59,708 bases of DNA from a virus, in the IMG/VR virus record IMGVR_UViG_3300008262_000463, positions 1-59,708 of that record. One strand, written 5' to 3'. This document shows positions 14,939 through 27,930 of the stretch, piece after piece. Each line of letters opens with the position of its first letter. Positions within the stretch are counted from its first letter, which is position 1. A program made the position numbers and the translations under genes. Below the pieces are notes generated by a model, which was given only the letters and a program-made list of their open reading frames with translations, did no database searches and was not told the DNA's origin.

Positions 14939-14955
14939 TTTAAGTTAAATAAAAA

Positions 14956-14963
14956 TATTTATC
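14956..14963 (-). promoter_or_regulatory. Possible late promoter (GATAAATA)
   Basis: GATAAATA on the minus strand, 17 bases before the ATG at 14938, and overlapping the stop of the broken gene upstream. It is one base off the late consensus, and the leader would be short. Confidence 0.3.
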
Positions 14964-15288
14964 TGATTATTTGTATGTCTTTTCCAGAGGTCCAGATTTC
15001 AAGTTCTTTTCTTAGACGACCATCAGACTGTAGATTCTCATAACGATTTGTTGCTTTCTTCTTCCACCAGTCTATGATATTTGACAACTCAAACTTATCA
15101 TAGTTTTCATCTGGTATCAACTTGTCTGTTTTGCAGTTCACATAGTCAATGAAGTTCTTAAAACCATAGTTGGAATAATAGTATCTCTTTTGTTCGGTCA
15201 AGTTCTTTGCGTTACTAATTATCTGTTCGAATTTTTCTAGTTCAGGACTATCTTTTAACGCAGATTTGGTTAATGATATTATTTTCAT
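14959..15288 (-). pseudogene. C-terminal fragment of a broken DUF4338 gene
   Basis: The fragment is read from the ATG at 15288 (109 residues), but its frame is open upstream to the junction near 15320, where it reads ISSRKLKIS. Segments KNLTEQKRYYYSNYGF, NCKTDKLIP and NIIDWWKKKATNRYENL match the C-terminal region of DUF4338 proteins of T4-like phages as I remember them. It follows the N-terminal fragment (15318-15830) in a different frame. About 80-110 residues of the middle of the gene appear to be missing. It has no clear ribosome site. I read it as the dead 3' part of one gene, although an independent small protein cannot be excluded. Confidence 0.55.
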
Positions 15289-15317
15289 ACTGATCTTCAG
15301 TTTTCTACTTGAAATGT

Positions 15318-15830
15318 TCAACAAATGGCAGCCAATAACTTGCCACCAAGATAATTATACCCAAATGGTTGTGATGGTACAATAACGAAACCCATAATTG
15401 CAGATTGATTGAATCGTTTGGACCAGTCAGGATTCTGCGTAAAAACTTGTCCAAGAAGATCATTACGAGGCTTACAGTTGATGACTGGTGAACCCAATCG
15501 AATGAACCCCACATACTTTCCGGTGTTCTTCTCTTTGATACCAACTCTGATCTGTTTACCTACTGGTTGAATGTTCACATGGGAACTGGTAATTGACAAA
15601 AGTGTTTCCCATGTTTCATTTGGTGTTTCCTCAATAATAAAATCCATGTCTGCTGGTGCCATGGAGAAGTCTGAGAATAGATCATCTTCTGGTGGAAATA
15701 ATGATGTGGGAATTTCTGATAATGCATTTAACTTTTGATCACGCATATATTCATCAATGCGACCAAAGTTACCAAAATAATCCTCAAAGACCTTTGCACA
15801 ATGCAAAGCATCATCGACACTCAATTTCAT
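15318..15830 (-). pseudogene. N-terminal fragment of a broken DUF4338 gene
   Basis: A 170-residue product ending GYNYLGGKLLAAIC and a TGA. The segment YVGFIRLGSP...PRNDLLG...AIMGFVIVPSQPFGYNYLGGKLLA aligns with ICISSDFLDLTPRD...AIGSTIVPLQPLGFNYMGGKLLALLC in the intact 419-residue DUF4338 protein at 34471-35730, which continues for about 200 more residues. The frame here stops exactly after this motif, and the C-terminal region resumes in another frame (14959-15288). An internal deletion plus frameshift explains both. DUF4338 is the domain of DruA in Druantia defence; phage copies have no known role. Confidence 0.6.
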
Positions 15831-17218
15831 ACTTTGAATCCCTCAAAGCTTTTCTTTTCAGCATTACCAAAAGTGTTCAATGGTTTGTCGTTACCTTTGT
15901 GACCAGAATCTACAATATTACTTTGTGCTGATTGTTCAATATCATATAACTTCATTTTGGCTCTATCAATTCCAACTGTGAATCTCTTGTGAAAAGTTGG
16001 ATCATTATATCGATTCTTCAATTGTTTCACCATGATTTGACCAAGTTGGTCTAAATCTTCTGATGAAATCAAAGCAAACATTAAGTCTGCTGTCGCAGGT
16101 AAGCCAAACGACTCTGAAGTATCTTCCAGTCCCGGATCACTTGATGTATACCCGCTTCTAGTGGTTTGGGTCGCACTAACAATAGGTACATTGAATTCCA
16201 CAGCCAGTCCCCGTAGCTCTTCAGCAATTGCTTTGACGTAGGTGTACGAGTTAATAGAAGCGCCAGGTTTAATCCTAGCAGAACAGCAAATGTTAAGATA
16301 ATCAACAAAAATAATATCGGGAACAAAAGAACGCTTAAGATTAAGTTCATTTAATAAAGTTCTAAAGTGAATTACTGAAGCTGATGCGGTTGGATATTCT
16401 TTGATAATTAATTTGCCCGTTGTTTTATCACGGACACGATTGACCTTCTTATCGTATATATCTTTCGGCAATTCTTGAAGATCACCAATATCAACATTCA
16501 AAAGATTTGCATCAATACGTTCTGCAATCTTTTCTTCGGACATTTCTAACGTGAGGTAAAGAACATTTTTACCTTGAACCATACAGCCAGCGGCAACATG
16601 GCACATAAAAAGAGACTTGCCAACACCAGTGCCAGCAAGGGCGATATTAAGAGTTTTATTTGGAAGGCCACCTTTTGTAATCTTGTTAAAATAGTCCAAG
16701 TCAAAGGGTATTCTTTCTTCTTTTCTGTGATAGAATTCAAATCGTTCATCAGAGTTCTCCAAATAGTCATGGCCAACAGAGTTATCGAAACTTACAGATA
16801 GAGCGTCCGATAATATCTTGGGAATCTGACCTTTGTCGTGTTGTTTGTCTTTCCCGTCAAGAATAGAAATCGACCCAAGTACTGCGTTGTATATTGCTTT
16901 CTCTTGACAGAACTTTTCGGTTTTATCAACAAGCCATTGAATTTCGGAACTTGTTTCTTTATTAGATCCAATTTCTTGGAGATAAGTTTCGCACTTCTGT
17001 AATTCATCATCTGTAATATTAGTCTTTTCTTTGATGGTAATACTAAGTGCTTCAATTGTTGGCGCTTTATTATAAGTTTGCGTGAATGATGTAATTTCAT
17101 TGTAAACTAACTTCTCAACATTTGTAGAAAAATATTCTCTCTTTAAAAATGGTAATACTTTTCTGAGATAGTCCTCATTATAGATTAGGGTCTTTAATAT
17201 CGTCTGTTCCAGTTTCAT
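15827..17218 (-). CDS. 41: Replicative DNA helicase gp41 (DnaB family)
   Basis: A 463-residue protein, close to T4 gp41 (475). The N-terminal domain (about 1-150) is the helical DnaB-type region. AGTGVGKS at 195-202 is Walker A, VLYLTLEMSEEKI is the strand after it (RecA fold, catalytic Glu), DIIFVDYLN is Walker B, and PIVSATQTTRSG is the sensor motif with the conserved Q and R. It unwinds DNA 5' to 3' on the lagging strand at the phage fork and works with primase gp61, which is not in this window. The start overlaps the upstream hypothetical by 41 bases. Confidence 0.93.
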   Translation of the reverse strand: MKLEQTILKTLIYNEDYLRKVLPFLKREYFSTNVEKLVYNEITSFTQTYNKAPTIEALSITIKEKTNITDDELQKCETYLQEIGSNKETSSEIQWLVDKTEKFCQEKAIYNAVLGSISILDGKDKQHDKGQIPKILSDALSVSFDNSVGHDYLENSDERFEFYHRKEERIPFDLDYFNKITKGGLPNKTLNIALAGTGVGKSLFMCHVAAGCMVQGKNVLYLTLEMSEEKIAERIDANLLNVDIGDLQELPKDIYDKKVNRVRDKTTGKLIIKEYPTASASVIHFRTLLNELNLKRSFVPDIIFVDYLNICCSARIKPGASINSYTYVKAIAEELRGLAVEFNVPIVSATQTTRSGYTSSDPGLEDTSESFGLPATADLMFALISSEDLDQLGQIMVKQLKNRYNDPTFHKRFTVGIDRAKMKLYDIEQSAQSNIVDSGHKGNDKPLNTFGNAEKKSFEGFKV

Positions 17219-17540
17219 TAATATTTTCCTCTGCTTTCAATGCTACCAAATGTACTAAAAAATCACCCGCATATTGAATAAATTCTGGATCTTTTTGTAA
17301 TTTTTTTGGCTTTGTGTTCTCTGATTTTATCACATCGAAAGCAAATTGTAAATGGCCGGCATCTTCTTTTTCTTCAAATTTTATTTTGCCATATTTGATT
17401 GTGGTACCAGTATACTTACCCTTTAAAAATTCAATATGAACCGCTTGTGCATCATTTTCTGGTACATGAAATTGATAATCTATTCCTAATACCATTGCAT
17501 TTGCATAATCACTAACGTTCAGTTCTGTCTCGCTGCTCAT
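17178..17540 (-). CDS. Conserved hypothetical protein of the gp41-uvsX region
   Basis: The start is set at the ATG at 17540 (MSSETELNVSDYANAM) with a strong AGGAG site 7 bases upstream; the frame is open further but lies inside the preceding gene. The 120-residue acidic protein has a beta-rich core (AMVLGIDYQFHVPEND, VHIEFLKGKYTGTTIKYGKIKFEE). I recall a similar small protein next to uvsX/gp41 in many T4-like phages, with no assigned role. It overlaps the gp41 start by 41 bases, which suggests coupled translation. Confidence 0.6.
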   Translation of the reverse strand: MSSETELNVSDYANAMVLGIDYQFHVPENDAQAVHIEFLKGKYTGTTIKYGKIKFEEKEDAGHLQFAFDVIKSENTKPKKLQKDPEFIQYAGDFLVHLVALKAEENINETGTDDIKDPNL

Positions 17541-17760
17541 TTCTTTTCTCCTGTATTGTCTTTTCACCCCAAATTTTTCTTGGATTTCCACACAAAGAAC
17601 AATCGGAATTTCCACAATCAGCCCAATGTTTTTTGGCGAATCGATGTATACTGTCTACAATTACACCATATGCTTTGGCAATTTTAGATTGTTTCTTTGC
17701 GTGTGTTTGTGTCTTTAATCTTCTTTTTGAATGTCTTAATTTTGAATAATCATCACTCAT
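17512..17760 (-). CDS. Conserved small protein with CGNxxCxxCGNPRK zinc-type motif
   Basis: About 82 residues if started at the ATG at 17760; ATGs at 17763 and 17772 are alternatives inside the end of uvsX. The C-terminal half carries DCGNSDCSLCGNPRKIWGE, a compact Cys cluster (C-x4-C-x2-C) that I know from a widely conserved family of T4-like phages; with the nearby His it could bind zinc. The N-terminal half is very basic (RHSKRRLKTQTHAKKQSK). Nucleic-acid binding is plausible. It overlaps uvsX (stop at 17753) and the next gene, so it belongs to the replication operon. Confidence 0.65.
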   Translation of the reverse strand: MSDDYSKLRHSKRRLKTQTHAKKQSKIAKAYGVIVDSIHRFAKKHWADCGNSDCSLCGNPRKIWGEKTIQEKRNEQRDRTER

Positions 17761-18835
17761 CATCTGATCCATTTATTGTTTCAACTTCAAAGGTTTCTTG
17801 TACATCTTCATCTTTGATAATATCTGTTGCAGCAACACGATATTTGTTTTCAACAAATTCACGAAACTTTTTATCTTTCAATATTGACATCCAAAAGTCT
17901 TTGCTGTCAACATCTTTGATTCTATATTTTTTATCTTCGATTTCACCAGTCTTTACATCAACCTTACTGTACCAACCGTTGGATGGTTTAATAACGTGAC
18001 CAGATTCGAGTGCAATATCAAGTAGACCAGACCAACGGCTAATGCCACCATCAAAAGATACAGTAACAGGAATCTTTGATTTTTCTTTAACATAACGAGA
18101 TTTTTCAACATTGATAATAAAGTTGTAACCGACAATTTCTGTTCCTTCCTTTTCTTGTTGTCGACCAATAATAAAAATATTATCGGCTGAATAATAAGAA
18201 CCGGTGCCACCACCAACAATATCTTTAGGGAACATTCCAATTTCTTTGTAGGTATGATTGACTACAATCATTGGAATATCTTTCAATGATAGGTGTGGTG
18301 TGACCATTCTAAACAAACTTTTAACTTGTTTTGCTCTTGACATATCTGCAACAGATTTTTGTTCAAGTGCATCTTCAACTTCTTTCTTTGATGCCAAATT
18401 ACCGATAGAATCAACAACAATAATCAAACGATCACCACGTTCTAGGTTTGACAATTGATTCATTATGTCAAACTTTAATTGTTCTATATCGGTAATAGGA
18501 GTGTGCAGAACACGATCAGTATCAATACCAAAGCTGTCAAAGTAGGATTGAGGAGTACCAAACTCTGAATCATAGAATAAAAGCGCTGCATCATTATATT
18601 TCTCCAAATAAGATTTCGCCATCAATAACGAAAATGCGGTCTTGAAATGTTTTGATGGACCTGCCCACATTGTAAGACCTGGTGTTAAACCACCATCCAA
18701 TTTACCACTAAGTGCCACATTAACAATTGGCACAGAAGTGGGAATCATATCTTTCTCAGTAAAGAATTTTGATTTCGATAGAATAGCAGATTCTTTGATG
18801 CTACTATTCTTTTTAATTTTATCAAGTATTCCCAT
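17753..18835 (-). CDS. uvsX: UvsX RecA-like recombinase
   Basis: A 360-residue protein. GPSKHFKT at 59-66 is the Walker A form typical of UvsX (T4 has a similar G-P-S-K-x-F-K-[ST]). LLFYDSEFG holds the catalytic Glu, and RLIIVVDSIGNLASKKE is Walker B with the following loop. MIVVNHTYKEIG corresponds to the sensor and L2 region, and VGGGTGSYYSADNIFII follows. It forms filaments on single-stranded DNA and drives strand exchange for recombination-dependent replication. Its mediator UvsY (43675-44109) and helicase UvsW (41552-43039) are also encoded. The acidic C-terminal tail is typical. Confidence 0.93.
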   Translation of the reverse strand: MGILDKIKKNSSIKESAILSKSKFFTEKDMIPTSVPIVNVALSGKLDGGLTPGLTMWAGPSKHFKTAFSLLMAKSYLEKYNDAALLFYDSEFGTPQSYFDSFGIDTDRVLHTPITDIEQLKFDIMNQLSNLERGDRLIIVVDSIGNLASKKEVEDALEQKSVADMSRAKQVKSLFRMVTPHLSLKDIPMIVVNHTYKEIGMFPKDIVGGGTGSYYSADNIFIIGRQQEKEGTEIVGYNFIINVEKSRYVKEKSKIPVTVSFDGGISRWSGLLDIALESGHVIKPSNGWYSKVDVKTGEIEDKKYRIKDVDSKDFWMSILKDKKFREFVENKYRVAATDIIKDEDVQETFEVETINGSDDE

Positions 18836-18845
18836 AATTTACCTT

Positions 18846-19847
18846 TCAATCAAATCCATCTTTTCGGTTTCGTTTTTCTTTAAATGCATATTCAGCATCA
18901 TAATCATACTTAGGTTCTAACTTCTTAACAGGTTCTTCTGTATATACACCAGGAGAAATGTGTGTTGTTTTCACTTCTTGTGGTGCAATGTAATCACCTG
19001 GTCTTTCCATTGGCATATCATCTTGTTTACCTATTGGTGGTATTGTGATACCAGAAACAGGATCAATCTCTATATCGGCTAAATTGTTTTTCTCAATCTC
19101 AACTATATTTTCTTTTTTTGGTTCTGGTACAAAAACTGGTATTTCAATATCATTTTTTTCTGGTATGGTTTTTTCTTTAATCGGTTTCGATTGATTCATT
19201 GACATATTCGCAGCAATTAATAATAACACAGCCAGCGGGTCAAATACAACCATAATTAACATGATTACCAAACGAACTGCCTTATCTATGGCATTGGCAT
19301 CATCTGTACCATATACCAAATCACCAATATATTTTATTGGACCAACTTCGGCAAGTAATTTAGTTTCTTCTTGTAATAATGGCAATCTTCTTCTATTGAT
19401 TTCAGCCAATTCTTTTTGTGAATCCTGAATCTGTCTATCTATTCTTGCTGATGCAGTTTCGGGATCACCGGCACGTTTCAATAGATATTCTAATCTCTCT
19501 TTTACAATTTTCTCTTGTTGATTGAGTGTCCTTATTTCAACAGAATTTGCACCTGCCGTTAAAGTAGAATCAATGTGTGCTTTAGATAAGAAACCAAAAA
19601 TACCCATGCTGGTGATTATCATAAGAATGACCACAGCAGATGTCAGGTATGCTTTAAGAAGTCTTGGACATATGATCCAATTTCTATACAACCAAGATGC
19701 AGTAACTAGTTTACTAGCTTCTAACACCGATCCCATAATAACAATAGGCCAAAATGCACCTGTAAAGATGGCAGCTAGACCAATAATTGAATAGTATGCA
19801 GCAATTACAGAAAGAGCAATTGCGGTTGCAAATGTTAAAAGAATCAT
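18846..19847 (-). CDS. Multi-pass membrane protein with coiled coil
   Basis: A 333-residue protein. Residues about 1-85 contain three hydrophobic segments (LTFATAIALSVIAAYYSIIG, AAIFTGAFWPIVIMGSV, YLTSAVVILMIITSMGIFGF). A charged coiled coil covers about 100-165 (LNQQEKIVKERLEYLLKRA, QIQDSQKELAEINRRR). A fourth membrane segment (LVIMLIMVVFDPLAVLLLIA) is near 195, followed by a Pro/Glu-rich cytoplasmic tail. I recall similar proteins next to gp43 in marine T4-like phages; the function is unknown. Its ATG overlaps the gp43 stop (ATGA), so it is coexpressed with the polymerase. A membrane anchor for replication or a host-takeover factor are only guesses. Confidence 0.65.
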   Translation of the reverse strand: MILLTFATAIALSVIAAYYSIIGLAAIFTGAFWPIVIMGSVLEASKLVTASWLYRNWIICPRLLKAYLTSAVVILMIITSMGIFGFLSKAHIDSTLTAGANSVEIRTLNQQEKIVKERLEYLLKRAGDPETASARIDRQIQDSQKELAEINRRRLPLLQEETKLLAEVGPIKYIGDLVYGTDDANAIDKAVRLVIMLIMVVFDPLAVLLLIAANMSMNQSKPIKEKTIPEKNDIEIPVFVPEPKKENIVEIEKNNLADIEIDPVSGITIPPIGKQDDMPMERPGDYIAPQEVKTTHISPGVYTEEPVKKLEPKYDYDAEYAFKEKRNRKDGFD

Positions 19848-21202
19848 GAGAAAAAGTCCTCTAAAGAATTAGTTTTCTCTACTGTCCAACCGACAAGGTC
19901 CAAAATTGTTTTAATTGGTTCTAAGAATGTTTTTTCAAATTGCAATTCATAATCAATGAATTCCTGTAAACCAAATTCAGGAGGCAATCTTGAAGGATAA
20001 GAAATCACAGTATCTTTAAATGGATTTGGCATTTTTAGATATGTGAATTTCAATTTATCACCATCTTGAACAAACGGATATTTCTTCGTTAGTTTCTTTT
20101 CTTTTAGATAGTGATTGTAGAGTATCGCACCCTTAACATGAATGGGTGTTCCTTTCTTATATAGTGTAAGTGGATCCGAGTAATTACTTAGACCATTACA
20201 TCCTCTTGGAAAAGATACTTCTTCTGCCGGCAAACCATTAAAGTGTTTTCTGAAATCTTCAATATAGTTGTGCAACTCAGTTTCGGTGCCCGTTATAATT
20301 AGTTTAATCGTTTCTTTCATTCTCTCACGAATGATGGCTGGTGTGGAAGATTTTACCATTTCCAAACCCATAACTTTCATCTTTGGTTCTTTGTATTGCA
20401 CACCTTCATTATTATATACATTCAACACATATCGTTTCTTGGCAGTCCACAAACCTCTACTTGCAAGTGCTTCTCGCTTCATTTCCATTTTCTGTTGATA
20501 CGCATGGATATAATCAGCAAGTTCCTGATAACTCTTGTCAATGTACGGCTGAATTTTATCTTCACAGACCTTGTCCATGAAGGAGATGATTTTCGCATGA
20601 TCTTCGCTTCCAGACTGAAAGACAGTATCCACCAGTGATGCAAGATTGAGATAAATCGAATCAGTATCGGACGCAATGACATAATCTTCTTCCGTTTTTA
20701 GTAGTTTATTGAGATATTCATTTAACTTATTTTCAATCCAACGAATCGATAATTGTCCAGCCAATGTGACTGCAAGTGCCATACGCAAATCATAGAATCT
20801 AAAATATTGTGAGCCAAGAGCACCGTAAGCGGAGTTCAATGAAACTTTTTTAGCTAATTGAATATTGTTATACTTAGCAATTTTCTTTTCTAGTTCTTTT
20901 TTCTTTTCTGTATCTGTTTCGTTTTGATATTCTTGTTGTGCAGACAACATAAACTTTTTAAACTTTTTACGGTCTTGATACATTTCTTCCATCATCTTAG
21001 GCAGGAAACCTTGGAAGTCAGTCCTGAAGAGCTGACCGTTGGGTGTGAGAGTACAATGCATAGGTCCAAGAAAAGATGTATCAACTGTTTTGTCCAATAA
21101 ACTATTAACATTGACTTTATCGATTTGTTGTTCAAACAATACAATAGACTGAAGTTCTTTTTGAATTTCTTCAGTTGTTAATTCTTTTACATTACGAAAC
21201 AT
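19844..21202 (-). CDS. 43B: DNA polymerase gp43, C-terminal half (polymerase palm and thumb)
   Basis: A 452-residue protein that carries the rest of a family B polymerase. KVSLNSAYGALGSQYFRFYD (about 117-136) is motif B (Kx3NSxYG). VIASDTDSIYLNL is motif C with the two catalytic Asp. ALASRGLWTAKKRYVLNVY matches the KKRY motif, and the C-terminus is the thumb. T4 gp43 motif A is absent here; it lies in the separate N-terminal gene (21765-23063). Together the two give 884 residues (T4: 898). The start ATG overlaps the HNH stop (TAATG), so reinitiation is likely. Both products must associate to polymerise. Confidence 0.9.
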   Translation of the reverse strand: MFRNVKELTTEEIQKELQSIVLFEQQIDKVNVNSLLDKTVDTSFLGPMHCTLTPNGQLFRTDFQGFLPKMMEEMYQDRKKFKKFMLSAQQEYQNETDTEKKKELEKKIAKYNNIQLAKKVSLNSAYGALGSQYFRFYDLRMALAVTLAGQLSIRWIENKLNEYLNKLLKTEEDYVIASDTDSIYLNLASLVDTVFQSGSEDHAKIISFMDKVCEDKIQPYIDKSYQELADYIHAYQQKMEMKREALASRGLWTAKKRYVLNVYNNEGVQYKEPKMKVMGLEMVKSSTPAIIRERMKETIKLIITGTETELHNYIEDFRKHFNGLPAEEVSFPRGCNGLSNYSDPLTLYKKGTPIHVKGAILYNHYLKEKKLTKKYPFVQDGDKLKFTYLKMPNPFKDTVISYPSRLPPEFGLQEFIDYELQFEKTFLEPIKTILDLVGWTVEKTNSLEDFFS

Positions 21203-21735
21203 TATTTACACCACTTCTTTCTATTTTCCGTTACAGTCAATATTTGCAAATTATCAGGATGATGTAAACCACCTTTTGCAATTGGTTGAATATGGTCTAC
21301 TTCGTGCCCCTTAGGACAAATTAAATAAAATTCTTGAATTTTTATTTTTTCTTCATTAGTTAATTCGGGAGTTTGATTCCGTATTCTTGCTCTGCGTCTT
21401 GCCGCAATTTCATTTCTAATTCTTCGTTTATGTTCTTCACCTAGATAACGACTTCTTTGAGCACATGAATAACTACAATATTTGGAATCATACTTTTCAC
21501 TTTCAGTTCTAAACTTCTGTGTTTCATATTCTTTAGCACAATGCAAACATTCTACTTTGGCTTTGCGTTCTTTATTTTGACATTCTAAAACAAAAGGTTT
21601 CTTTATATCAAATTTTTGTAGGTGTTTTTTGATATTGGCATCCGAACAACCAAAATATTCAGCAACTTCACTACGCCTCATATTTTTGGTAATAAACAAC
21701 TCATATAGTTTATCCTTCGTGATATTGTATTTCAT
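21202..21735 (-). CDS. HNH homing endonuclease inserted between the two halves of gp43
   Basis: A 177-residue protein. The N-terminus (ITKDKLYELFITKNMRRSEVAEYF and GCSDANIKKHL) is a helix-turn-helix. The middle has zinc-finger cysteines (CLHCAKEYE, KYCSYSCAQRSR). The C-terminus is an HNH nuclease: GHEVDHIQPIAKGGLHHPDNLQ and ILTVTENRKKWC, with the DH and N/H pattern. It is free-standing, with its own ATG and a TTGGAG ribosome site, and lies between gp43N and gp43C with no intron-like sequence (29 bases upstream, direct overlap downstream). By analogy with split gp43 genes in Aeromonas T4-like phages, it probably caused or maintains the split. Confidence 0.88.
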   Translation of the reverse strand: MKYNITKDKLYELFITKNMRRSEVAEYFGCSDANIKKHLQKFDIKKPFVLECQNKERKAKVECLHCAKEYETQKFRTESEKYDSKYCSYSCAQRSRYLGEEHKRRIRNEIAARRRARIRNQTPELTNEEKIKIQEFYLICPKGHEVDHIQPIAKGGLHHPDNLQILTVTENRKKWCK

Positions 21736-21764
21736 AGATTCTCCAAATAAGTAACCACATCTAC

Positions 21765-23063
21765 TTATTTAGTATTTCTAAGTCTCAATTCTTCAAGTAA
21801 TTTGCGTTTTCTTTCAGATATATAACTTCTTTCTACAAGATTTTCAGGACTTATGGAATACTGCATCATAAGGTGGGGGTAAAGTGAATTTAGGTCAAAG
21901 CTAGCAACCCACTTGTGCAATCCTGTTTGTGGTTCTTTGACATATGCACCTTCAAATGCAGAATCTTTATCTTTAATGATTCTTGGTGGAACAATAATAT
22001 TTTTCTCCAACAAATAAGAATATGTTAGAGAATCCCACATACGAGTTTGTGCAAATACATCCTCATAATTTGTTTTGGTGTCATATGCAAGAGTTACTGC
22101 CAACTCCAACAACTTTAACTTATCTTCTAACTTCAGAATAAGGTCAACGTCTTTGATGTTATATTCGATAAATTTTTGATAGTTGAGTTTGTACAATTGG
22201 TGCAAGTTATCATACTCATCATATGATATTTTCTTTTCACCTAATTCTACATTAGCAATATTATCAAGTTTATAGGACTCTTGTGACTTGCCGCCTGGCG
22301 CATACCATTTGTACAATTCAATATAGTCAAGTGAAGCAAGACCAACCAATTCGTATGCAATCAATTGTCTGCCATTAATTACAGTAGTTCTTTCATTGAT
22401 TCTGTTCCAAGGTGATAACTTTTTGCAATCATCATCACCTAGAATCTTTTTGAATCGATTGATCAAGTATGGTATATCAAAGAATTTTGTATTCCAACCA
22501 GTTATGATATCTGGTGTTTTTTCTGACCACATTTTAAGAAAGTGTTTACACAAAGACCACTCATCTTTGCATTTATGATATGTAACATTCTCAGGATCAT
22601 TATTCTCATATGAACCGCAACCATAAACATATTTGTGTCCATCGATATAGTGAATAGCAATTGCTGTGATCGGTTCGTTTGCTTCGTAGGGATCAGGAAA
22701 ACCATTCTCAGATCCGACCTCAATATCGATAATTGCAATTTCTAATTTATCGAAATCATAGTCAATCATGCCTTTGTGTTGATCAGCAATAAAGGCATAT
22801 TCAAAACGAGTTTGTCCGTAAATTTTAGGACCATTTGAAACACCATCAAACTGTTTAATGTAATCTCTGGCTTCTTTCATTGTGCCAAAGATTTTTTGAT
22901 CTAGATAATCACCATCTAATGATGTAAAGTTTGTGATGCGTTTGGATGGAATATAGAGTGAAGGAGAATATTCAATTCTCTGCTTCACCCTTTTTCCGTT
23001 CTGTATACCTCTGTATAGTATGTTACTGCCAAAGGTTTGAACATTAGTATAGAATGATTTCAT
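21765..23063 (-). CDS. 43A: DNA polymerase gp43, N-terminal half (exonuclease and motif A)
   Basis: A 432-residue protein. IAIIDIEVGSENG (exo I, with catalytic D and E), ITGWNTKFFDIPYL (exo II) and YNIKDVDLILKL (exo III) form the proofreading exonuclease. FDLNSLYPHLMMQYSISPENL near 394-414 is polymerase motif A. The chain ends about 20 residues later with SERKRKLLEELRLRNTK, which does not look like the usual continuation and may be the scar of the insertion. The polymerase continues in the gene at 19844-21202. Four-base overlap with the upstream Sm-like gene; the sigma-70 promoter at 23419-23447 drives this group. Confidence 0.9.
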   Translation of the reverse strand: MKSFYTNVQTFGSNILYRGIQNGKRVKQRIEYSPSLYIPSKRITNFTSLDGDYLDQKIFGTMKEARDYIKQFDGVSNGPKIYGQTRFEYAFIADQHKGMIDYDFDKLEIAIIDIEVGSENGFPDPYEANEPITAIAIHYIDGHKYVYGCGSYENNDPENVTYHKCKDEWSLCKHFLKMWSEKTPDIITGWNTKFFDIPYLINRFKKILGDDDCKKLSPWNRINERTTVINGRQLIAYELVGLASLDYIELYKWYAPGGKSQESYKLDNIANVELGEKKISYDEYDNLHQLYKLNYQKFIEYNIKDVDLILKLEDKLKLLELAVTLAYDTKTNYEDVFAQTRMWDSLTYSYLLEKNIIVPPRIIKDKDSAFEGAYVKEPQTGLHKWVASFDLNSLYPHLMMQYSISPENLVERSYISERKRKLLEELRLRNTK

Positions 23064-23371
23064 CCTGTAATAATTTGTTTTTGTCCTGGCACAACAATTC
23101 CTGTACCGAAAATTTGATCATAGTTTTGTTTAAAATCTTCTGCTGGTTCATAAGAATATACAATATGTTTCTTACGAATGGCAATAGATGAACCGGTCTT
23201 TTGTTGAGCGTGAATTGGAAATGGTGCGAATCCAACATTTGGTGTTCCATCTTTACCACGAACAACCGCAATGGATACTGGATTGATAAAAACTATTTCT
23301 GTTTCAGATTCACCTTCCAGTTCACCTAGAATATCTTCACCGGTAATAAGTTTGGCTGCTAAAATTTTCAT
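23060..23371 (-). CDS. Sm-like small phage protein
   Basis: A 103-residue protein: KLITGEDILGELEGESETEIVFINP is the five-strand start of an Sm/LSm-like fold, and KKHIVYSYEPAEDFKQNY is the closing segment. The tail FGTGIVVPGQKQIITG is typical of a phage family I recall next to gp43. Sm-fold proteins bind RNA, but this family has no known activity. A second, related protein is at 41161-41559 (QNGEDIIGTISS ... CMIEPSEDFIEYYN). It is the first gene after the strong promoter at 23419-23447 and overlaps gp43N by four bases. Confidence 0.65.
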   Translation of the reverse strand: MKILAAKLITGEDILGELEGESETEIVFINPVSIAVVRGKDGTPNVGFAPFPIHAQQKTGSSIAIRKKHIVYSYEPAEDFKQNYDQIFGTGIVVPGQKQIITG

Positions 23372-23390
23372 ATTAATACCTCTTTTTTTA

Positions 23391-23398
23391 TATAAATA
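23391..23398 (+). promoter_or_regulatory. T4-type late promoter for the plus-strand operon
   Basis: A perfect TATAAATA on the plus strand, 76 bases before the first plus-strand start codon (23475). It is the only late box I find that faces right and it precedes the only rightward genes in the window. Confidence 0.6.
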
Positions 23399-23418
23399 AT
23401 AGAGTGAGTTGAATAGGA

Positions 23419-23447
23419 AGTATACTAGTTTCTGATTAGATTGTCAA
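23419..23447 (-). promoter_or_regulatory. Sigma-70 promoter for the gp43-uvsX-gp41 group
   Basis: Read on the minus strand: TTGACA (23447-23442), 17-base spacer, TATACT (23424-23419). The -35 box is perfect and the -10 has one mismatch. Transcription would start near 23412 and run into the Sm-like gene at 23371. Expected to be an early promoter read by host RNA polymerase. Confidence 0.8.
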
Positions 23448-23474
23448 TAAAAAGAAAGGTATATTTCGATTAAC

Positions 23475-23594
23475 ATGGATTACATCGCATATGGCATAGC
23501 AATACTTTCATTGGCCATCTCCATATATGTATTGTTAGAACTCCAAGAAATTAAAAACTTGGATTTATTCAATATATTCAAAAAGAAAAAGTGA
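23475..23594 (+). CDS. Membrane mini-protein, 39 aa
   Basis: ATG at 23475, TGA at 23592. One membrane segment (IAYGIAILSLAISIYVLLEL) takes up the N-terminal half, followed by a charged tail ending NIFKKKK. This is the topology of many small phage holin-accessory or superinfection proteins, but I see no family match. The ribosome site is weak (no clear GGAG). It opens the late plus-strand operon. Confidence 0.45.
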   Translation: MDYIAYGIAILSLAISIYVLLELQEIKNLDLFNIFKKKK

Positions 23595-23647
23595 CTTGAT
23601 TGAATTTGTGCGTGATTCGTTTTGCATAGTTTGATTAGGATACTAAA

Positions 23648-24091
23648 ATGTCAAAATTAGATTTATCTGCTGGTAAGGCAGCTCTTGGCTCGATCAAAGA
23701 AGCCAAACAATTAGGTAAAGAATTTGGTAGTGTAATCACCGATGAGCAGGCTGAAAATGAACGCCTTATCCAAGCACAACATAAAAAAAGATTAGAAGAT
23801 AAAGAGAAGGCTCTAAAGTGGGCCGAATTTGCTGAATTTCGTGCCGTAAAGGAATACGAAAAACAAAAAGAAAGAGAATCAGAGTTAGCCAAATTAAAGA
23901 AATCCGTTACTGATAAATATGGTAATAACGCTTGGAATGAAGTAGAACAAATTAAAGAGAAACAAAAAAAAGAGCATGATGAAGAAAAAGCTCTTATAGA
24001 TGCTGATCGTCACAAAGTGCAAGATTTGATGTGGTGGTGTGTTACAGTAGCGGCTCTCATAACATATTTTTTCAAGTTATACAAAATATGA
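23648..24091 (+). CDS. Coiled-coil protein with C-terminal membrane anchor
   Basis: A 147-residue protein with AGGA in front of the ATG. The body is a long charged helix (RLEDKEKALKWAEFAEFRAV, EYEKQKERESELAKLKKSV, EVEQIKEKQKKEHDEEKAL), predicted to be coiled coil. One membrane segment, MWWCVTVAALITYFFKLYKI, closes the chain. I recall relatives opening with LDLSAGKxALxSIKxAK in aquatic T4-like phages. Its orientation, late promoter and tail-anchor topology fit a lysis or spanin-like function, but this is inference. Its stop overlaps the next start (ATGA at 24088). Confidence 0.65.
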   Translation: MSKLDLSAGKAALGSIKEAKQLGKEFGSVITDEQAENERLIQAQHKKRLEDKEKALKWAEFAEFRAVKEYEKQKERESELAKLKKSVTDKYGNNAWNEVEQIKEKQKKEHDEEKALIDADRHKVQDLMWWCVTVAALITYFFKLYKI

Positions 24092-24228
24092 AACCGCCTA
24101 AAAAAAGTAACCAACCAATGATTGCAATTGTTACAGTTGTATCTATGTTAACATTGATATATCTTGATTACCATTCCGCCCAAGTTAAAAGAGAAGCAGA
24201 GAGAAAAGCTGAAACAAGAAATAGGTGA
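24088..24228 (+). CDS. Membrane mini-protein, 46 aa
   Basis: Starts at the ATG overlapping the previous stop (ATGA). Basic N-terminus (MKPPKKSNQ), one membrane segment (MIAIVTVVSMLTLIYLDY), then a charged periplasmic or cytoplasmic helix (HSAQVKREAERKAETRNR). Translation is presumably coupled to the coiled-coil gene before it. An N-terminal membrane segment with a charged helix is also the topology of inner-membrane spanins, but at 46 residues it is very short for one. Confidence 0.5.
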   Translation: MKPPKKSNQPMIAIVTVVSMLTLIYLDYHSAQVKREAERKAETRNR

Positions 24229-24235
24229 TTTTTTT

Positions 24236-24322
24236 ATGAGACTGGCTCCGAAGGTAGCACTAATAACATTACTGTGTATTTCATTACTATTCTTATTAGA
24301 GGTTTTAGTTAAACTAAAATGA
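24236..24322 (+). CDS. Membrane mini-protein, 28 aa
   Basis: ATG at 24236, TGA at 24320. The whole product is one membrane segment (ALITLLCISLLFLLEVLVKL) with MRLAPK before it. The stop overlaps the next start codon (ATGA), which favours real translation even at this size. Function unknown. Confidence 0.35.
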   Translation: MRLAPKVALITLLCISLLFLLEVLVKLK

Positions 24323-24414
24323 AACATCCAATCGAAATTCTTATGGACTTTTGGACCCATATGTTTTTAATTGGGTACTTTAGTCTATACGACATCACTA
24401 AGTATAAAATCTAA
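24319..24414 (+). CDS. Small hydrophobic protein, 31 aa
   Basis: Starts at an ATG overlapping the previous stop; ends TAA at 24412. The product (MKHPIEILMDFWTHMFLIGY, then FSLYDITKYKI) is amphipathic with a weak membrane segment. It is the last member of the five-gene plus-strand set. Reality rests only on the overlap and position. Confidence 0.35.
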   Translation: MKHPIEILMDFWTHMFLIGYFSLYDITKYKI

Positions 24415-24421
24415 AATCATT

Positions 24422-24470
24422 TTTTTCAATCTCCGGATTCTTGGATTTTTTTTCGGAGCCGGATTGAAAA
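24422..24470. repeat. Imperfect inverted repeat between convergent transcripts
   Basis: TTTTCAATC-CCGG (two-base bulge) pairs with CCGGATTGAAAA across about 22 bases. It lies where the plus-strand operon meets the end of the minus-strand rubrerythrin-tRNA transcript. Neither strand has a clear U-tract after the stem, so a terminator is only possible. The rest of 24471-24603 shows nothing I can name. Confidence 0.4.
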
Positions 24471-24603
24471 ATTTCGAAATTTGGAGCGGTCGGCCGCTAT
24501 GCTCGGCTAAACTAAGTGGGAACTCAATTCGTACTATTACAGACCGCATTTATAATATTATATATACACTCTCACAAAAAATCAATACTACTTCTGGTAA
24601 ACT

Positions 24604-24679
24604 TGGCCTGACCAGGAGGAATCGAACCCCCGTATAGATGCTTAGAAGGCACCTGCGTTATCCGCTACGCTATGGTCAG
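24604..24679 (-). tRNA. tRNA-Arg (anticodon TCT)
   Basis: Full cloverleaf on the minus strand: acceptor CTGACCA/TGGTCAG, D arm GCGT...ACGC, anticodon loop CTTCTAA, T arm GGGGG-TTCGATT-CCTCC, discriminator G, encoded CCA. It reads AGA (and AGG by wobble), codons frequent in AT-rich phage genes. It directly follows the rubredoxin stop. Confidence 0.95.
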
Positions 24680-24811
24680 TTATTCTTCAACAACCAATTC
24701 ATAATCTTGTTTTGAAACACCACACTCAGGACAGCCAACTGAATCTGGTAACATAGCATAATCTTCTTCTGTTAATATGTGGCCACAGACCACGCAACGA
24801 TAGTATCTCAT
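24680..24811 (-). CDS. Rubredoxin-like protein, 43 aa
   Basis: ATG at 24811 overlaps the rubrerythrin stop by one base (TAATG). The 43 residues contain YRCVVCGHILTEEDY and LPDSVGCPECGVSKQDYEL: two C-x2-C-G knuckles in the exact rubredoxin arrangement (LPDxxxCPxCGxxKxxYE) that binds one iron. Classical rubrerythrins carry this module at their C-terminus, whereas here it is a separate, coupled gene. It likely passes electrons to the diiron protein encoded just upstream. The stop codon abuts tRNA-Arg with no gap. Confidence 0.8.
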   Translation of the reverse strand: MRYYRCVVCGHILTEEDYAMLPDSVGCPECGVSKQDYELVVEE

Positions 24812-25263
24812 TATGCAATCTCCTGTTTCATTTGTTGATATTTGGAAGCATGAACTTTTTCGGCACCTTGTAGTGCTTTGAATCTCTTTGCGGCAAGTGC
24901 TAAGACTTTCTTAAATTTTTCAGCGTGTTCTACTGATTCATTAATTTGATCTTGTGCCTCTTTTGCTGCTTGTTCATTACCTTCTGCAATTGCTTCTTCC
25001 AACATTTTTGGATACATTTCGGTGTATTCATATGTTTCACAATCGATGGCTTTTTGAAGGCAATCGTTTACATCTAGTGTACCAACAAGCAGTTCTAAAT
25101 GTCCCCATGCGTGTTTTACTTCCTGTTCGGCAGTATGTTCAAAATGTTTTGCAACATCCTCATACCCTTGTTCTCGAGCAAGTTTGGCAAAATACTTGTA
25201 TTTCACATGAGCCTGCGATTCTCCAGCAAAAGCAGCCTCCAAATTTTTAATTGTGACACTCAT
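24811..25263 (-). CDS. Rubrerythrin (ferritin-like diiron domain only)
   Basis: A 150-residue protein: NLEAAFAGESQAHVKYKYFA and TAEQEVKHAWGHLELL (E-x6-Y, E-x2-H), then ETYEYTEMYPKMLEEA and SVEHAEKFKKVLA (E-x2-H) give the Glu/His ligands of a rubrerythrin diiron site. Length fits the four-helix domain without a rubredoxin tail. Rubrerythrins reduce hydrogen peroxide with electrons from rubredoxin; the partner is the next gene. A promoter lies at 25303-25331. A role in protecting the infected cell from oxidative stress is inferred. Confidence 0.88.
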   Translation of the reverse strand: MSVTIKNLEAAFAGESQAHVKYKYFAKLAREQGYEDVAKHFEHTAEQEVKHAWGHLELLVGTLDVNDCLQKAIDCETYEYTEMYPKMLEEAIAEGNEQAAKEAQDQINESVEHAEKFKKVLALAAKRFKALQGAEKVHASKYQQMKQEIA

Positions 25264-25302
25264 TTATTTTTCCTTTCAAATAATTAATGTTGATAGTATT
25301 AA

Positions 25303-25331
25303 ACTATACATTATTACTTAGTGCAAAGCAA
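25303..25331 (-). promoter_or_regulatory. Probable sigma-70 promoter of the rubrerythrin operon
   Basis: Minus strand: TTGCTT (25331-25326), 17-base spacer, TATAGT (25308-25303). The -10 is good and the -35 weaker than in the other promoters. The rubrerythrin ATG is at 25263, after a TTTGAAAGGA leader. Confidence 0.55.
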
Positions 25332-25390
25332 CACAAAAATGACTTATTACCTATATGATATTTTTTTATTGTGGTGATCGAAAAAAACAA

Positions 25391-25861
25391 TTAGGCCATG
25401 TTTAGAGTTTTTAGTCTATCGGCTGCATATGATGCCGCAAAGGCTTGAGGTTTGACCATTGGTATGACATTACAGGTACCACGAATATAACCAATGGCTT
25501 CGTTGATAACACAGTTTGACCCGTGTAATTCGGAAGGATTAATGTCCAGATGAACTTCAACATCACGACCTTCAAGTACATCTGCAAGTTTTAAATATAA
25601 CTCACTTACACGATATACTTCATTCATTAAACGAAATCTTGGACGATTTTGTTTTTGATCATAATCTTTTTCACGGTATACTTCACCAAACAATTTGCAT
25701 CCGTGTTTTCCATCAATATGAATTACAATTGCCAGAACATAATCTGCATACCACACTTTATCAATCTTGAATCTTTCTGAATCACAACCAATGTATATTT
25801 TTGTTTCTGTACTTTGTTTTTCAATAAATTCTTTTACTTCTTCAAGATTGATCTTTTTCAT
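25391..25861 (-). CDS. RNase H-like fold protein, DUF458/YkuK type
   Basis: A 156-residue protein. IYIGCDSERFK (with the first acidic residue), YADYVLAIVIHI, VYREKDYDQ and VEVHLDINPSELHGSNCV, then AIGYIRGTCNVIPMVKPQAFAASYAADRL are the conserved blocks of the YkuK/DUF458 family, which has an RNase H-like fold. D26, D-I-N and the final D provide a plausible acidic triad, but activity is unproven in the family. Phage copies are common in T4-like genomes. It is last in the transcript that begins with the tRNA array. Confidence 0.7.
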   Translation of the reverse strand: MKKINLEEVKEFIEKQSTETKIYIGCDSERFKIDKVWYADYVLAIVIHIDGKHGCKLFGEVYREKDYDQKQNRPRFRLMNEVYRVSELYLKLADVLEGRDVEVHLDINPSELHGSNCVINEAIGYIRGTCNVIPMVKPQAFAASYAADRLKTLNMA

Positions 25862-25865
25862 AAAG

Positions 25866-26201
25866 TCACCTTTTCGGTTTTGGTAATTGTGGAAGTTTTT
25901 TCCACTCCTCTATCCATTTTTCTTGTTCAGATTGTTTTTCAATAACTCTATCGAGTTTTTCATTTGCTTCTTTTAATCGTTGTATCACAATATCATTTTT
26001 ATCTCTTGTATCGTGTATGACTTTATGCATACCGTCTAATCTACCTTCAAATATGAGTACACGTTCTTTGAAGTAGTCAACATCACGGCCTCTTGACCAA
26101 GCAATAGCTAAGATGACCAATGTTGTACAAAACAATGCCATCAAGCAATACATTAATATTTCTTTTTTATCTTTATCTGTAAGTTCTTTTAATATTTTCA
26201 T
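25866..26201 (-). CDS. Membrane-anchored coiled-coil protein
   Basis: A 111-residue protein. A charged N-terminus (LKELTDKDKKEI) precedes one membrane segment (LMYCLMALFCTTLVILAIAW), then a long coiled coil (HKVIHDTRDKNDIVIQRL, EANEKLDRVIEKQSEQEKW) and a Pro-rich basic end (LPQLPKPKR). This is inner-membrane spanin-like topology, but many other phage proteins share it and it is not next to lysis genes that I can recognise. It lies between tRNA-Pro and the RNase H-like gene. Confidence 0.5.
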   Translation of the reverse strand: MKILKELTDKDKKEILMYCLMALFCTTLVILAIAWSRGRDVDYFKERVLIFEGRLDGMHKVIHDTRDKNDIVIQRLKEANEKLDRVIEKQSEQEKWIEEWKKLPQLPKPKR

Positions 26202-26216
26202 ATGTTTTTATAAAAA

Positions 26217-26294
26217 TGGTCCGAGTGGCAAGATTCGAACTTGCGATTTCCTGCTCCCAAAGCAGGCGGAATAACCAGACTATCCTACACTCGG
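26217..26294 (-). tRNA. tRNA-Pro (anticodon TGG)
   Basis: Minus-strand cloverleaf: acceptor CCGAGTG/CACTCGG, anticodon loop TTTGGGA, T loop TTCGAAT, discriminator A, encoded CCA. Reads CCN/CCA codons. Confidence 0.95.
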
Positions 26295-26299
26295 TTGTT

Positions 26300-26473
26300 T
26301 TATTTACTTTGATATCTAACTCGACAAGACACATTCATTTGTGATTTTGCCTGTTTAAGTGCTTTTTCAAAGGTGTGTTTTTTTGCTAAACATTCTTTTT
26401 CATTTTTAAATTCTTCTACAACTGCAAAATTTTCTATAGAACCTAACCAAATAATCAGTAAATAAGATATCAT
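26300..26473 (-). CDS. Small protein with N-terminal signal/anchor, within tRNA cluster
   Basis: A 57-residue frame, ATG at 26473 with a strong AGGAG site. The N-terminus (MISYLLIIWLGSIENFAVV) is a hydrophobic signal or anchor. The rest is charged with two cysteines (NEKECLAKKHTFEKALKQAK, MNVSCRVRYQSK). The pattern [FE]xxExxC....F....A....M...C is one I recall from small exported phage proteins; function unknown. It lies between tRNA-Thr and tRNA-Pro with only 5-14 bases on each side, so it is cut out of, or translated from, the tRNA precursor. Confidence 0.6.
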   Translation of the reverse strand: MISYLLIIWLGSIENFAVVEEFKNEKECLAKKHTFEKALKQAKSQMNVSCRVRYQSK

Positions 26474-26487
26474 GTTTATCTCCTATT

Positions 26488-26561
26488 TGGTGCCCCTTGA
26501 CAGAATCGAACTGCCAATTGCTCATTACAAGTGAGCTGTTATGCCATTTAACTAAAGAGGC
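26488..26561 (-). tRNA. tRNA-Thr (anticodon TGT)
   Basis: Minus-strand cloverleaf: acceptor GCCTCTT/AAGGGGC (one G-U), anticodon loop CTTGTAA, T loop TTCGATT, discriminator A, encoded CCA. Reads ACA/ACN. Confidence 0.95.
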
Positions 26562-26579
26562 AATTCAATACCTTATATA

Positions 26580-26664
26580 TGGTGGGTAGCCAGGGACTCG
26601 AACCCCGTATGCCTAAGGCGCCGGATTTACAGTCCGGTGCAGTAACCTGTTCTGCTCGCTACCC
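26580..26664 (-). tRNA. tRNA-Tyr (anticodon GTA)
   Basis: Minus-strand class II tRNA of 85 bases: acceptor GGGTAGC/GCTACCC, anticodon loop CTGTAAA, long variable arm (CGCCTTAGGCATA), T loop TTCGAGT, discriminator A, encoded CCA. Confidence 0.95.
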
Positions 26665-26670
26665 AATGAT

Positions 26671-26746
26671 AAGGGGCACACCAAGCGTTTCCCAACGAGT
26701 GGCTGTTGTTTAAGAGTAGGCGTGACGTTCGCGCTCACTCCCCCTT
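26671..26746 (-). ncRNA. Candidate structured small RNA at the head of the tRNA array
   Basis: The 76 bases between the promoter (26770-26798) and tRNA-Tyr fold, on the minus strand, into a three-way shape. The closing stem is AAGGGG/CCCCTT. One arm has GAGT...ACTC enclosing GTGA...TCAC, and the second has CCA-CT-CGTT/AACG-CT-TGG with a GGGA loop. Size and position recall the stable RNAs C and D that accompany the T4 tRNA genes, but I see no sequence match and no anticodon. It could be a stable RNA or a leader that helps processing. Confidence 0.5.
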
Positions 26747-26769
26747 TTACTTTTTAAAGAACAAATATT

Positions 26770-26798
26770 ATATTATCACTACCACAATATTTTGTCAA
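26770..26798 (-). promoter_or_regulatory. Sigma-70 promoter of the tRNA array
   Basis: Minus strand: TTGACA (26798-26793), 17-base spacer, TAATAT (26775-26770). Transcription would start near 26763 and read the structured RNA, tRNA-Tyr, tRNA-Thr, a small gene and tRNA-Pro. Confidence 0.75.
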
Positions 26799-26834
26799 GC
26801 TTTACTGTTGTAAAAATACAACACTTGGAAATAA

Positions 26835-26866
26835 AAAACCTCAAGATTTTTAGGCCTTGAGGTTTT
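26835..26866 (-). terminator. Rho-independent terminator
   Basis: Perfect 11-bp inverted repeat AAAACCTCAAG/CTTGAGGTTTT with a 10-base loop, followed on the minus strand by TTTTTTATTT. It lies just after the stop of the metallopeptidase gene (26883) and isolates the tRNA promoter downstream. Confidence 0.85.
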
Positions 26867-26882
26867 GGAATTTAATTATATT

Positions 26883-27419
26883 TTAAATTTGATTTTCAAA
26901 ATCCTGTTGCGGCCATTCTAACCAACCAAGTGGTTCTGCTACTATAGGTGTGTCTGGATCTTGAATATTTTTAAACACTTTGTGTAATTCTTCTTTAATA
27001 ACAAACTTAGTAAATAATCCTGTGCTCATACCGTAGGCTTCTATTTCCCATGGTTCAAACCAGTAATCTATGGTATCTACATTGACTTTTGTGCCACGCC
27101 ACCGAGTTGCTGATTCATTCATTTCAGAATAAGCATATTGTTTAACATGAACCATTTCGTGAGCGAGTGTTTCTAAAATATCTCTTGCGCCAATGCCTGG
27201 ATTTAACTCAATTAAAAATTCTCTTGGTTTTCCAGAATCATTGTATTCTTCAACACTAGCATATCCATATACATCTAGTTTATCATTGAACTTGATTTGT
27301 ACATAGATATTATCCATTAATTTCTTGGATAACAAATTTTCGGCATAAAAGAGAGCTGCACGCTTAACGAATGGTCGGAAGCGTTCTTTATCAGGACATT
27401 TAACGATGCTGAGTTTCAT
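26883..27419 (-). CDS. Zinc metallopeptidase-like protein (SprT-like HExxH)
   Basis: Start chosen at the ATG at 27419 (MKLSIVKCPDKERFRPFV) with an AAGGA site; the frame is open to 27470 but overlaps the deaminase gene. The 178-residue protein has LETLAHEMVHVKQYAYSEM (about 96-115), an HExxH zinc site, and a downstream EPWEIEAYG that can supply the third ligand (E). This is the compact layout of SprT-like or WSS1-like domains, and copies are common in T4-like phages. Substrate unknown. A terminator follows directly. Confidence 0.7.
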   Translation of the reverse strand: MKLSIVKCPDKERFRPFVKRAALFYAENLLSKKLMDNIYVQIKFNDKLDVYGYASVEEYNDSGKPREFLIELNPGIGARDILETLAHEMVHVKQYAYSEMNESATRWRGTKVNVDTIDYWFEPWEIEAYGMSTGLFTKFVIKEELHKVFKNIQDPDTPIVAEPLGWLEWPQQDFENQI

Positions 27420-27456
27420 CTTAGGTCCTTTCCCTTGATATACATTATTTATCTGA

Positions 27457-27930
27457 CTAACTAATTTCACCTGGTGAAATTTCTATCTCTATGTTGCATT
27501 GTTTCAAAAACTCAATTCCATGGCTGTCACGGTAATGTTTTCGAAAGTAGACCTTTTTAATTCCAGAGGTGTAGATTTGTTTTGCACAATCTATGCACGG
27601 GGCATGGGTCAGGAACATCGTGGAACCGTCTCCTGATTCAGGACCTTTAGCGAGTTTCGCAATCGCATTGGCCTCTGCATGGATGACTTCTGGTTTGGTC
27701 TTTAGATTATAACTGGTGCCATCTTCTTCACGGAATTCATGTTCGTATGGTGACTTATAATCTCGGTATTCACAATCGTTAGTCCAACCGGCAGGCATAC
27801 CATTATAACCAATGGAAATGATTCTGTCATCTTTGACAATAATTGCACCCACCTGTAAACGCTTTGCACTTGATAACTGAGCAAAGCGGTGTGCAACATC
27901 CATGTATGCGTTAATATATTTTTGTTTCAT
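27457..27930 (-). CDS. cd: Deoxycytidylate (dCMP) deaminase
   Basis: A 157-residue zinc deaminase: VIHAEANAIAKL (HAE, zinc His and catalytic Glu) and THAPCIDCAKQIY (PCxxC, zinc cysteines), with the N-terminal VGAIIVKDDRIISIGYNGMP. It converts dCMP to dUMP for thymidylate synthesis, as T4 Cd does (193 residues; this copy lacks some insertions). The lookalike families (cytidine and guanine deaminases) lack the YNGxPxG motif. The gene follows tRNA-Met. Confidence 0.9.
   Translation of the reverse strand: MKQKYINAYMDVAHRFAQLSSAKRLQVGAIIVKDDRIISIGYNGMPAGWTNDCEYRDYKSPYEHEFREEDGTSYNLKTKPEVIHAEANAIAKLAKGPESGDGSTMFLTHAPCIDCAKQIYTSGIKKVYFRKHYRDSHGIEFLKQCNIEIEISPGEIS

Follow-up and report, generated by a model that had tools for sequence, protein, structure and literature searches.

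The window analysed here, 59,708 nt of viral DNA (positions 1 to 59,708 of IMG/VR record IMGVR_UViG_3300008262_000463), encodes its T4-type replicative DNA polymerase, gp43, in two genes, with a free-standing HNH endonuclease gene between them. We consider it likely that this arrangement is a mobile, homing allele that spreads itself and encodes a two-piece polymerase whose halves reassemble. Comparison of the sequences supports the break and its conservation, the exchange of the junction between phage backbones, the polyphyly of the split state, the loss or replacement of the nuclease, and purifying selection on the tail and head that the two halves carry at the break.

The gp43 split in the window genome is real. 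The same arrangement is present in contig L001, 99.7% identical to the window over 5,619 nt, and in L083, in which all three proteins are 100% identical, and these repeats rule out an assembly error. The N-half matches the Pfam family DNA_pol_B_exo1 and the start of DNA_pol_B, while the C-half matches the remainder of DNA_pol_B; in the PHROG family phrog_262 (DNA polymerase) the N-half covers 6-438 and the C-half 424-851. Motif A (SFDLNSLYPHL) sits in the N-half and motifs B (SLNSAYGALG) and C (ASDTDSIYL) in the C-half, and the C-half motifs are invariant in all 44 sequences compared. All the traits of a T4-type gp43 (exonuclease, palm, fingers and thumb, motifs A, B and C) are therefore present in two genes, and only the single polypeptide is absent. 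An earlier reading, made from the sequence alone, had assigned the exonuclease and motif A to one gene and motifs B and C to another, with the HNH gene between them, and the motifs and family matches agree with it. It had also argued that the halves must bind each other, and since motifs A and C are in separate chains we judge this to be probably right. Because the alignment to RB69 gp43 (numbered on a deletion-variant chain, shifted by hand) ends for the N-half at about residue 431 and starts for the C-half at about 456, the break can be placed in the palm, past motif A and ahead of the fingers, as that reading had proposed. Its description of overlapping stop and start codons stands for the HNH stop and the C-half ATG (TAATG), but not for the N-half stop and the HNH start, which lie 29 nt apart.

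Split and intact alleles and the exchange of the junction

Besides the window record, the identical break was found in 65 more contigs (34 in group 1, 30 in group 2 and 1 in group 3; counted by hand, with repeats removed by hand). The three groups are divergent from one another, and the split persists in all of them. The C-half scan gave 80 loci (12 split, 66 intact and 2 without an N-half, L014 and L032, set aside), and the group-2 C-half scan also gave 80 (12 split, 65 intact and 3 without an N-half, L140, L184 and L196, set aside). In intact genes the reading frame continues without a break across a short linker (group 1: ..SPETLIEPENYTDEMREVLSQGVSVDKLL..), in place of which the group-1 split genes carry an N-tail, SPENLVERSYIEDRKQKLIEELKLRNTK, and a C-head, MFRNVKELTTEELQKELQAIELFEQEIGK. 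The group-2 split genes carry the N-tail SPETLVEKHELNNRIAELEKML and the C-head MWKDVRKMSREEIVEELEALKQVRELS, and L133 has a third tail and head pair.

The intact genes L002-L005 share about 93% protein identity with the window gp43 and differ from it only around the junction. Compared in bins of 100 nt, the window gene shows about 85-99% identity with the intact L002 and L004 in most bins. The exception is about 21950..21051, where it matches the split L009 and L011 instead (80-95% in most bins); elsewhere in the gene these two are only about 65-80% identical to it in most bins. At the junction 795 nt in the window stand where L004 has about 119 nt. On both flanks the main aligned pieces of L002-L005 are about 88-91% identical to the window (85-92% when every piece is counted), and the L004 alignment spans window positions 14841..27705. 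Because the window matches intact relatives outside the junction and other split phages at it, these identities indicate that the junction was recently exchanged between phages. The earlier notion of a polymerase split by an HNH endonuclease is right as to the split and the HNH gene but misleading for this genome, in which an intact gene of the L002 type seems to have received the already split cassette by exchange.

Two sister pairs give a similar picture. L006 (split, without the HNH gene) and the intact L051 are 98-100% identical outside the junction and 67-79% in the bins adjacent to it; L125 and the intact L141 follow a like pattern, with identity falling again further into the C side. 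For both pairs, identity near 100% holds on the N side, and at the start of the C side, until about 60-120 nt from the junction; it drops to 62-79% in the adjoining bins, and the ungapped display of the upstream alignment is out of register.

We also built a midpoint-rooted tree of the polymerase core, with 149 tips (106 intact, 43 split) from 255 sequences out of 298 loci, near-identical sequences (95%) having been removed per class. The tree needs 22 Fitch changes between split and intact; the nearest neighbour is intact for 15 of the 43 splits, and the window, L006 and L008 are nested in a mostly intact clade. Counted as intact in this tree is L200, whose gp43 is uninterrupted at the junction and has an insertion (L200:1703-2947) in its N part; the queries used gave no nuclease match there. 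The HNH protein was then compared with the polymerase in the 20 of 23 group-1 split sequences that have both the HNH gene and a full N-half. HNH protein identity exceeded that of both polymerase halves in 189 of 190 pairs, and the rank correlation was 0.14 between HNH and N-half, 0.10 between HNH and C-half, and 0.43 between the two halves; HNH similarity is almost uncoupled from polymerase similarity. The tree indicates that the split state has been repeatedly exchanged, yet partly inherited.

The nuclease and the new protein ends

All 54 full-length HNH homologues in viral contigs lie downstream of a gp43 N-half, and 51 of them lie upstream of a C-half, the other three being at a contig end. 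The HNH motif of the window protein scores 21.3 bits against PF01844, just below the cut-off of 21.4, whereas the relatives L007, L119 and L129 score above it, and 53 of the 54 homologues match the motif pattern. The gene is under strong purifying selection, with a ratio of nonsynonymous to synonymous substitution rates (dN/dS) of 0.07 (22 sequences). When 50,697 phage records were searched with tblastn, the window HNH gave 8 partial matches, none covering 80% of it, the group-2 HNH gave 12, one of them at 80% coverage or more (28.5% identity, Roseobacter phage CRP-2), and the GIY-YIG-like protein described next gave none. A search of genome contigs for the nuclease returned 1 partial match only, of 31 residues, in Pseudanabaena, and NCBIfam gave nothing specific for the nucleases.

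A GIY-YIG-like gene replaces the HNH gene in 5 of 30 group-2 contigs (L142, L154, L161, L162 and L239). The L154 protein matches PF22945 (E=1.5e-4, below its cut-off), and the helix-turn-helix (HTH) at the C-terminus of the GIY-YIG-like protein shows homology to the one at the N-terminus of the HNH protein (L161, E=8e-11, two-sequence comparison). The HNH gene is deleted in 3 of 34 group-1 contigs (L006, L008 and L015), with differing junctions that retain the last 20-30 nt of the gene, leading into the C-half start; L148 and L157 keep only the end of the HNH gene. Since gp43 is still split in L006, L008 and L015, these contigs indicate that the split outlives the nuclease.

Other genes are also found at this site. 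Additional small open reading frames (ORFs) lie between the nuclease and the C-half in L118, L120, L129, L087, L021, L009, L013 and L107, L118 has a Dam methyltransferase (PF05869) at the break site, and the gp43 break seems to gather genes. The HNH protein of L129 (L129:3252-4052) has what appear to be two tandem HTH units.

Split phages share a conserved N-half end (..SERKRKLLEELRLRNTK). Jukes-Cantor dN/dS values for N-tail and C-head were 0.22 and 0.25 in group 1 and 0.18 and 0.27 in group 2, indicating purifying selection on both; a group-2 coreN value of 0.34 was discarded as an artefact of variable alignment ends. The sequence-only reading had suspected the N-half end of being a scar. 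This is ruled out, as tail and head are shared among split phages and constrained, and the tail matches a helix of a natural hairpin linker. Both arms of that hairpin occur in a single chain in the one-piece gene L182 (SPETLVEKDELNSRIAELESSGENDDELKSLKKVKELSTKVSVDKLL) and in Synechococcus phage S-CAM7 (4 of 50,697 records). The predicted L182 model, with a predicted local distance difference test (pLDDT) score of 89, aligns to RB69 gp43 with a best Z of 47.3 and a root-mean-square deviation of 3.8 over 800 aligned residues. Its helices 409-422 and 426-441, joined by a short turn, are confidently predicted, and the break of the split relatives maps to this turn. On these models the N-tail and C-head correspond to the arms of a predicted hairpin of two helices, broken at its tip, and the arms probably pair between the two chains. 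The L182 gene itself may be either ancestral or re-fused.

The coordinates of the locus are collected below. On the minus strand a 333-aa ORF and then UvsX follow 3' of the C-half. Rubredoxin-like and rubrerythrin genes lie adjacent to each other at 24680-25263 of the window, near the gp43 of a T4-like phage, and the closest named relatives are cyanophages and HTVC008M.

Features of the split gp43 locus in the window
Feature	Position	Strand	Basis or remark
gp43 N-half, 3'-5' exonuclease and palm motif A, 432 aa	21765..23063	minus	family matches, RB69 gp43 alignment
Motif A aspartate codon (SFDLNSLYPH)	21894..21896	minus	sequence and alignment to RB69 gp43
N-tail, residues 411-432, predicted helix-1 arm, conserved in split phages	21768..21833	minus	dN/dS about 0.22
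Free-standing HNH endonuclease with N-terminal HTH, 177 aa	21202..21735	minus	family matches, homologue comparison
gp43 C-half: fingers, motifs B and C, thumb, 452 aa	19844..21202	minus	ATG overlaps HNH stop
C-head, C-half residues 1-29, predicted helix-2 arm, conserved in split phages, none in intact relatives	21116..21202	minus	helix 10-29 predicted
Motif B region (KKVSLNSAYGALG)	20813..20851	minus	sequence and conserved columns in C-half alignment
Motif C DTD	20660..20668	minus	sequence; D179 T180 D181 invariant in C-half alignment
Exchanged tract, replacing about 119 nt of the intact L004 gene	21047..21841	minus	flanks about 88-91% identical to L002-L005

Probable homing and its alternatives

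As a homing allele, the locus would work as follows. The break falls between motif A and the fingers, where a helical hairpin is inserted into the palm and is cut at its tip. The N-half retains one arm as its tail and the C-half bears the other as its head, and pairing of the arms would bring motifs A and C into one active site. The intervening nuclease (HNH here, GIY-YIG-like with a homologous HTH in some relatives) would cut the one-piece gene of a co-infecting phage, and repair off the split allele would copy nuclease, tail and head across in a short co-conversion tract. Once split, the gene could remain so even after deletion of the nuclease. What we infer from the comparisons above is that the nuclease cleaves the intact allele, that homing drives the exchange, that the arms pair and that the halves assemble into an active enzyme.

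Several points weigh against homing. Shuffled labels on the tree need a mean of 37.5 changes (range 28-42), more than the 22 observed, and therefore much of the inheritance of the split or intact state is vertical; for 28 of the 43 splits the nearest neighbour is itself split or there is a tie. The direction from intact to split would follow from the nesting in a midpoint-rooted tree. At fourfold sites, the HNH gene surpassed both halves in identity for only 129 of 190 pairs. Between groups 1 and 2 the HNH proteins are about 50% identical and the polymerases about 45-54%, and here the cassette may simply be old. The C-half of the window, modelled alone, has a predicted template modelling (pTM) score of 0.41, with its head predicted as a helix over residues 10-29. 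Finally, ordinary recombination between co-infecting phages could also exchange the junction.

That such homologous recombination is solely responsible, with the nuclease as a passive passenger, is the best of the alternatives, and we regard it as unlikely. The edges of the tract coincide with conserved stretches, one near motif A and one at ..GFLPKMMEEMY, which are possible recombination edges, and L006 lacks the HNH gene and yet is nearly identical to the intact L051 outside the junction. However, because the HNH gene is so constrained and its site is re-occupied by a second nuclease fold, nuclease activity is suggested to matter.

Far less probable is that a group I intron or an intein restores a continuous polymerase. 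Such elements do occur in comparable genes, the 43B gene of Aeromonas phage 25 also bearing a group IA2 intron (record annotation) and the PolB of phage MIJ3 being described in the published passages as split by an intein plus HNH (PMC6892783). In our case Rfam searches found no intron family in the window up to E=10, in line with the absence of an intron in the earlier reading, and none at gathering scores in L006, L008 and L015. In these HNH-less loci N codon 412 and C codon 30 are only 160-176 nt apart, and with the Rfam result this argues against a group I intron at the junction. The extra ends, of about 20 and 29 aa, are constrained as protein. Intein halves of this size would be short, and neither half had a Pfam intein match, in a comparison that included no search aimed at inteins. 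Moreover, 42 of the 44 distinct start contexts have an upstream frame, at least 30 codons long, whose stop lies no more than 20 nt from the C-half ATG; TAATG is a common form, and the arrangement is consistent with translational coupling. Equally hard to credit is a polymerase that is broken and dead while another one replicates the phage: the window record is incomplete, leaving room for a second polymerase, but the motifs are invariant, purifying selection acts on both halves as well as on their new ends, and the split is kept in three divergent groups. The window record, of only 59.7 kb, has no second C-half match, and all 8 longer split records (54-174 kb, possibly fragments themselves) have PolB matches at the split locus alone.

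Known split polymerases and the meaning of the split

The precedent in Aeromonas phages, raised by the sequence-only reading, exists: in phages 25 and 44RR (43A, a seg-type nuclease, 43B), as here, a T4-type gp43 lies in two genes flanking a free-standing homing-type nuclease (PMC2988022; Aeromonas phage 25 record). The break differs, since 43A runs about 75 residues past the window break, into the fingers, whereas here the break is at the palm hairpin tip; the Aeromonas nuclease is GIY-YIG-like and 43B has the group IA2 intron, whereas here either an HNH or a GIY-YIG-like nuclease, bearing an HTH, occupies the site. Petrov et al. 2010 is reportedly the original paper on the co-purification and activity of 43A and 43B of Aeromonas phage 25. 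Passages of another article state that 43A and 43B co-purify and are active, and leave it unclear whether the nuclease caused the split (PMC2988022). In the same passages, the nrdA gene of phage Aeh1 is an essential gene split by a free-standing nuclease, mobE, with its function kept, although gene and nuclease are other ones (PMC2988022). In jumbo phage MIJ3 an HNH gene likewise separates two genes that together encode PolB, but the passages on it report intein blocks (PMC6892783), none of which were seen among the Pfam matches of our halves. The mitochondrial cox2 of Campsomeris was also fissioned into complementary polypeptides linked to a nuclease gene, in one lineage and in another gene, and the abstract describes no mobile allele (PMC5374615). 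In gut Jug phages, endonucleases frequently interrupt the DNA polymerase genes, according to passages of a preprint (PMC12363816), and domain swapping is described for phage homing endonucleases (passages of PMC10448857). The passages covered of PMC2993671, PMC10580990, PMC10448857, PMC7544198 and PMC8351571 describe no split at the window break site, nor was it found in print among passages of open-licence PMC articles, which does not establish its absence from the literature. A split gp43 with a nuclease is thus known from Aeromonas phages; the present one differs in break site, nucleases and phages, and comes with direct comparative evidence for repeated exchange of the split state and for loss of the nuclease.

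Two contigs carry further breaks. In L106 (L106:4034-6251) the C-half is broken again, into C1 (4034-4360) and C2 (5196-6251, whose first codons look frame-shifted), with a 258-aa ORF of putative Vsr-like character between them; this gp43 is possibly in three pieces, with the second break near the Aeromonas phage 25 site. In L105 (L105:1155-3471) the N-half is interrupted inside the exonuclease by a 275-aa ORF, HNH-like by eye, which with the usual HNH gene leaves gp43 in three pieces.

The transition from a one-chain enzyme to an obligate two-subunit one is usually seen only after the fact. Here, related phages hold coexisting forms, intact, split with either of two nucleases, split without a nuclease, and naturally one-chain with the same hairpin, some pairs being near-identical outside the junction. 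In an essential replicative polymerase it therefore becomes directly testable whether homing drives gene fission, whether fission is reversible and how a new protein interface evolves. The finding is also a caution that fragmented gp43 genes in metagenomes should not be dismissed as assembly errors. Whether the locus is more broadly a self-spreading gene-fission element is a question on which we are evenly divided. Its nuclease would turn the one-piece polymerase genes of co-infecting phages into two-piece ones while supplying its own matched dimerisation helices, unrelated nuclease folds could drive it if the site-recognising HTH is kept, and the two-subunit polymerase would stay after loss of the nuclease. 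If this is true, an essential enzyme in broken form is spreading in the manner of a mobile element.

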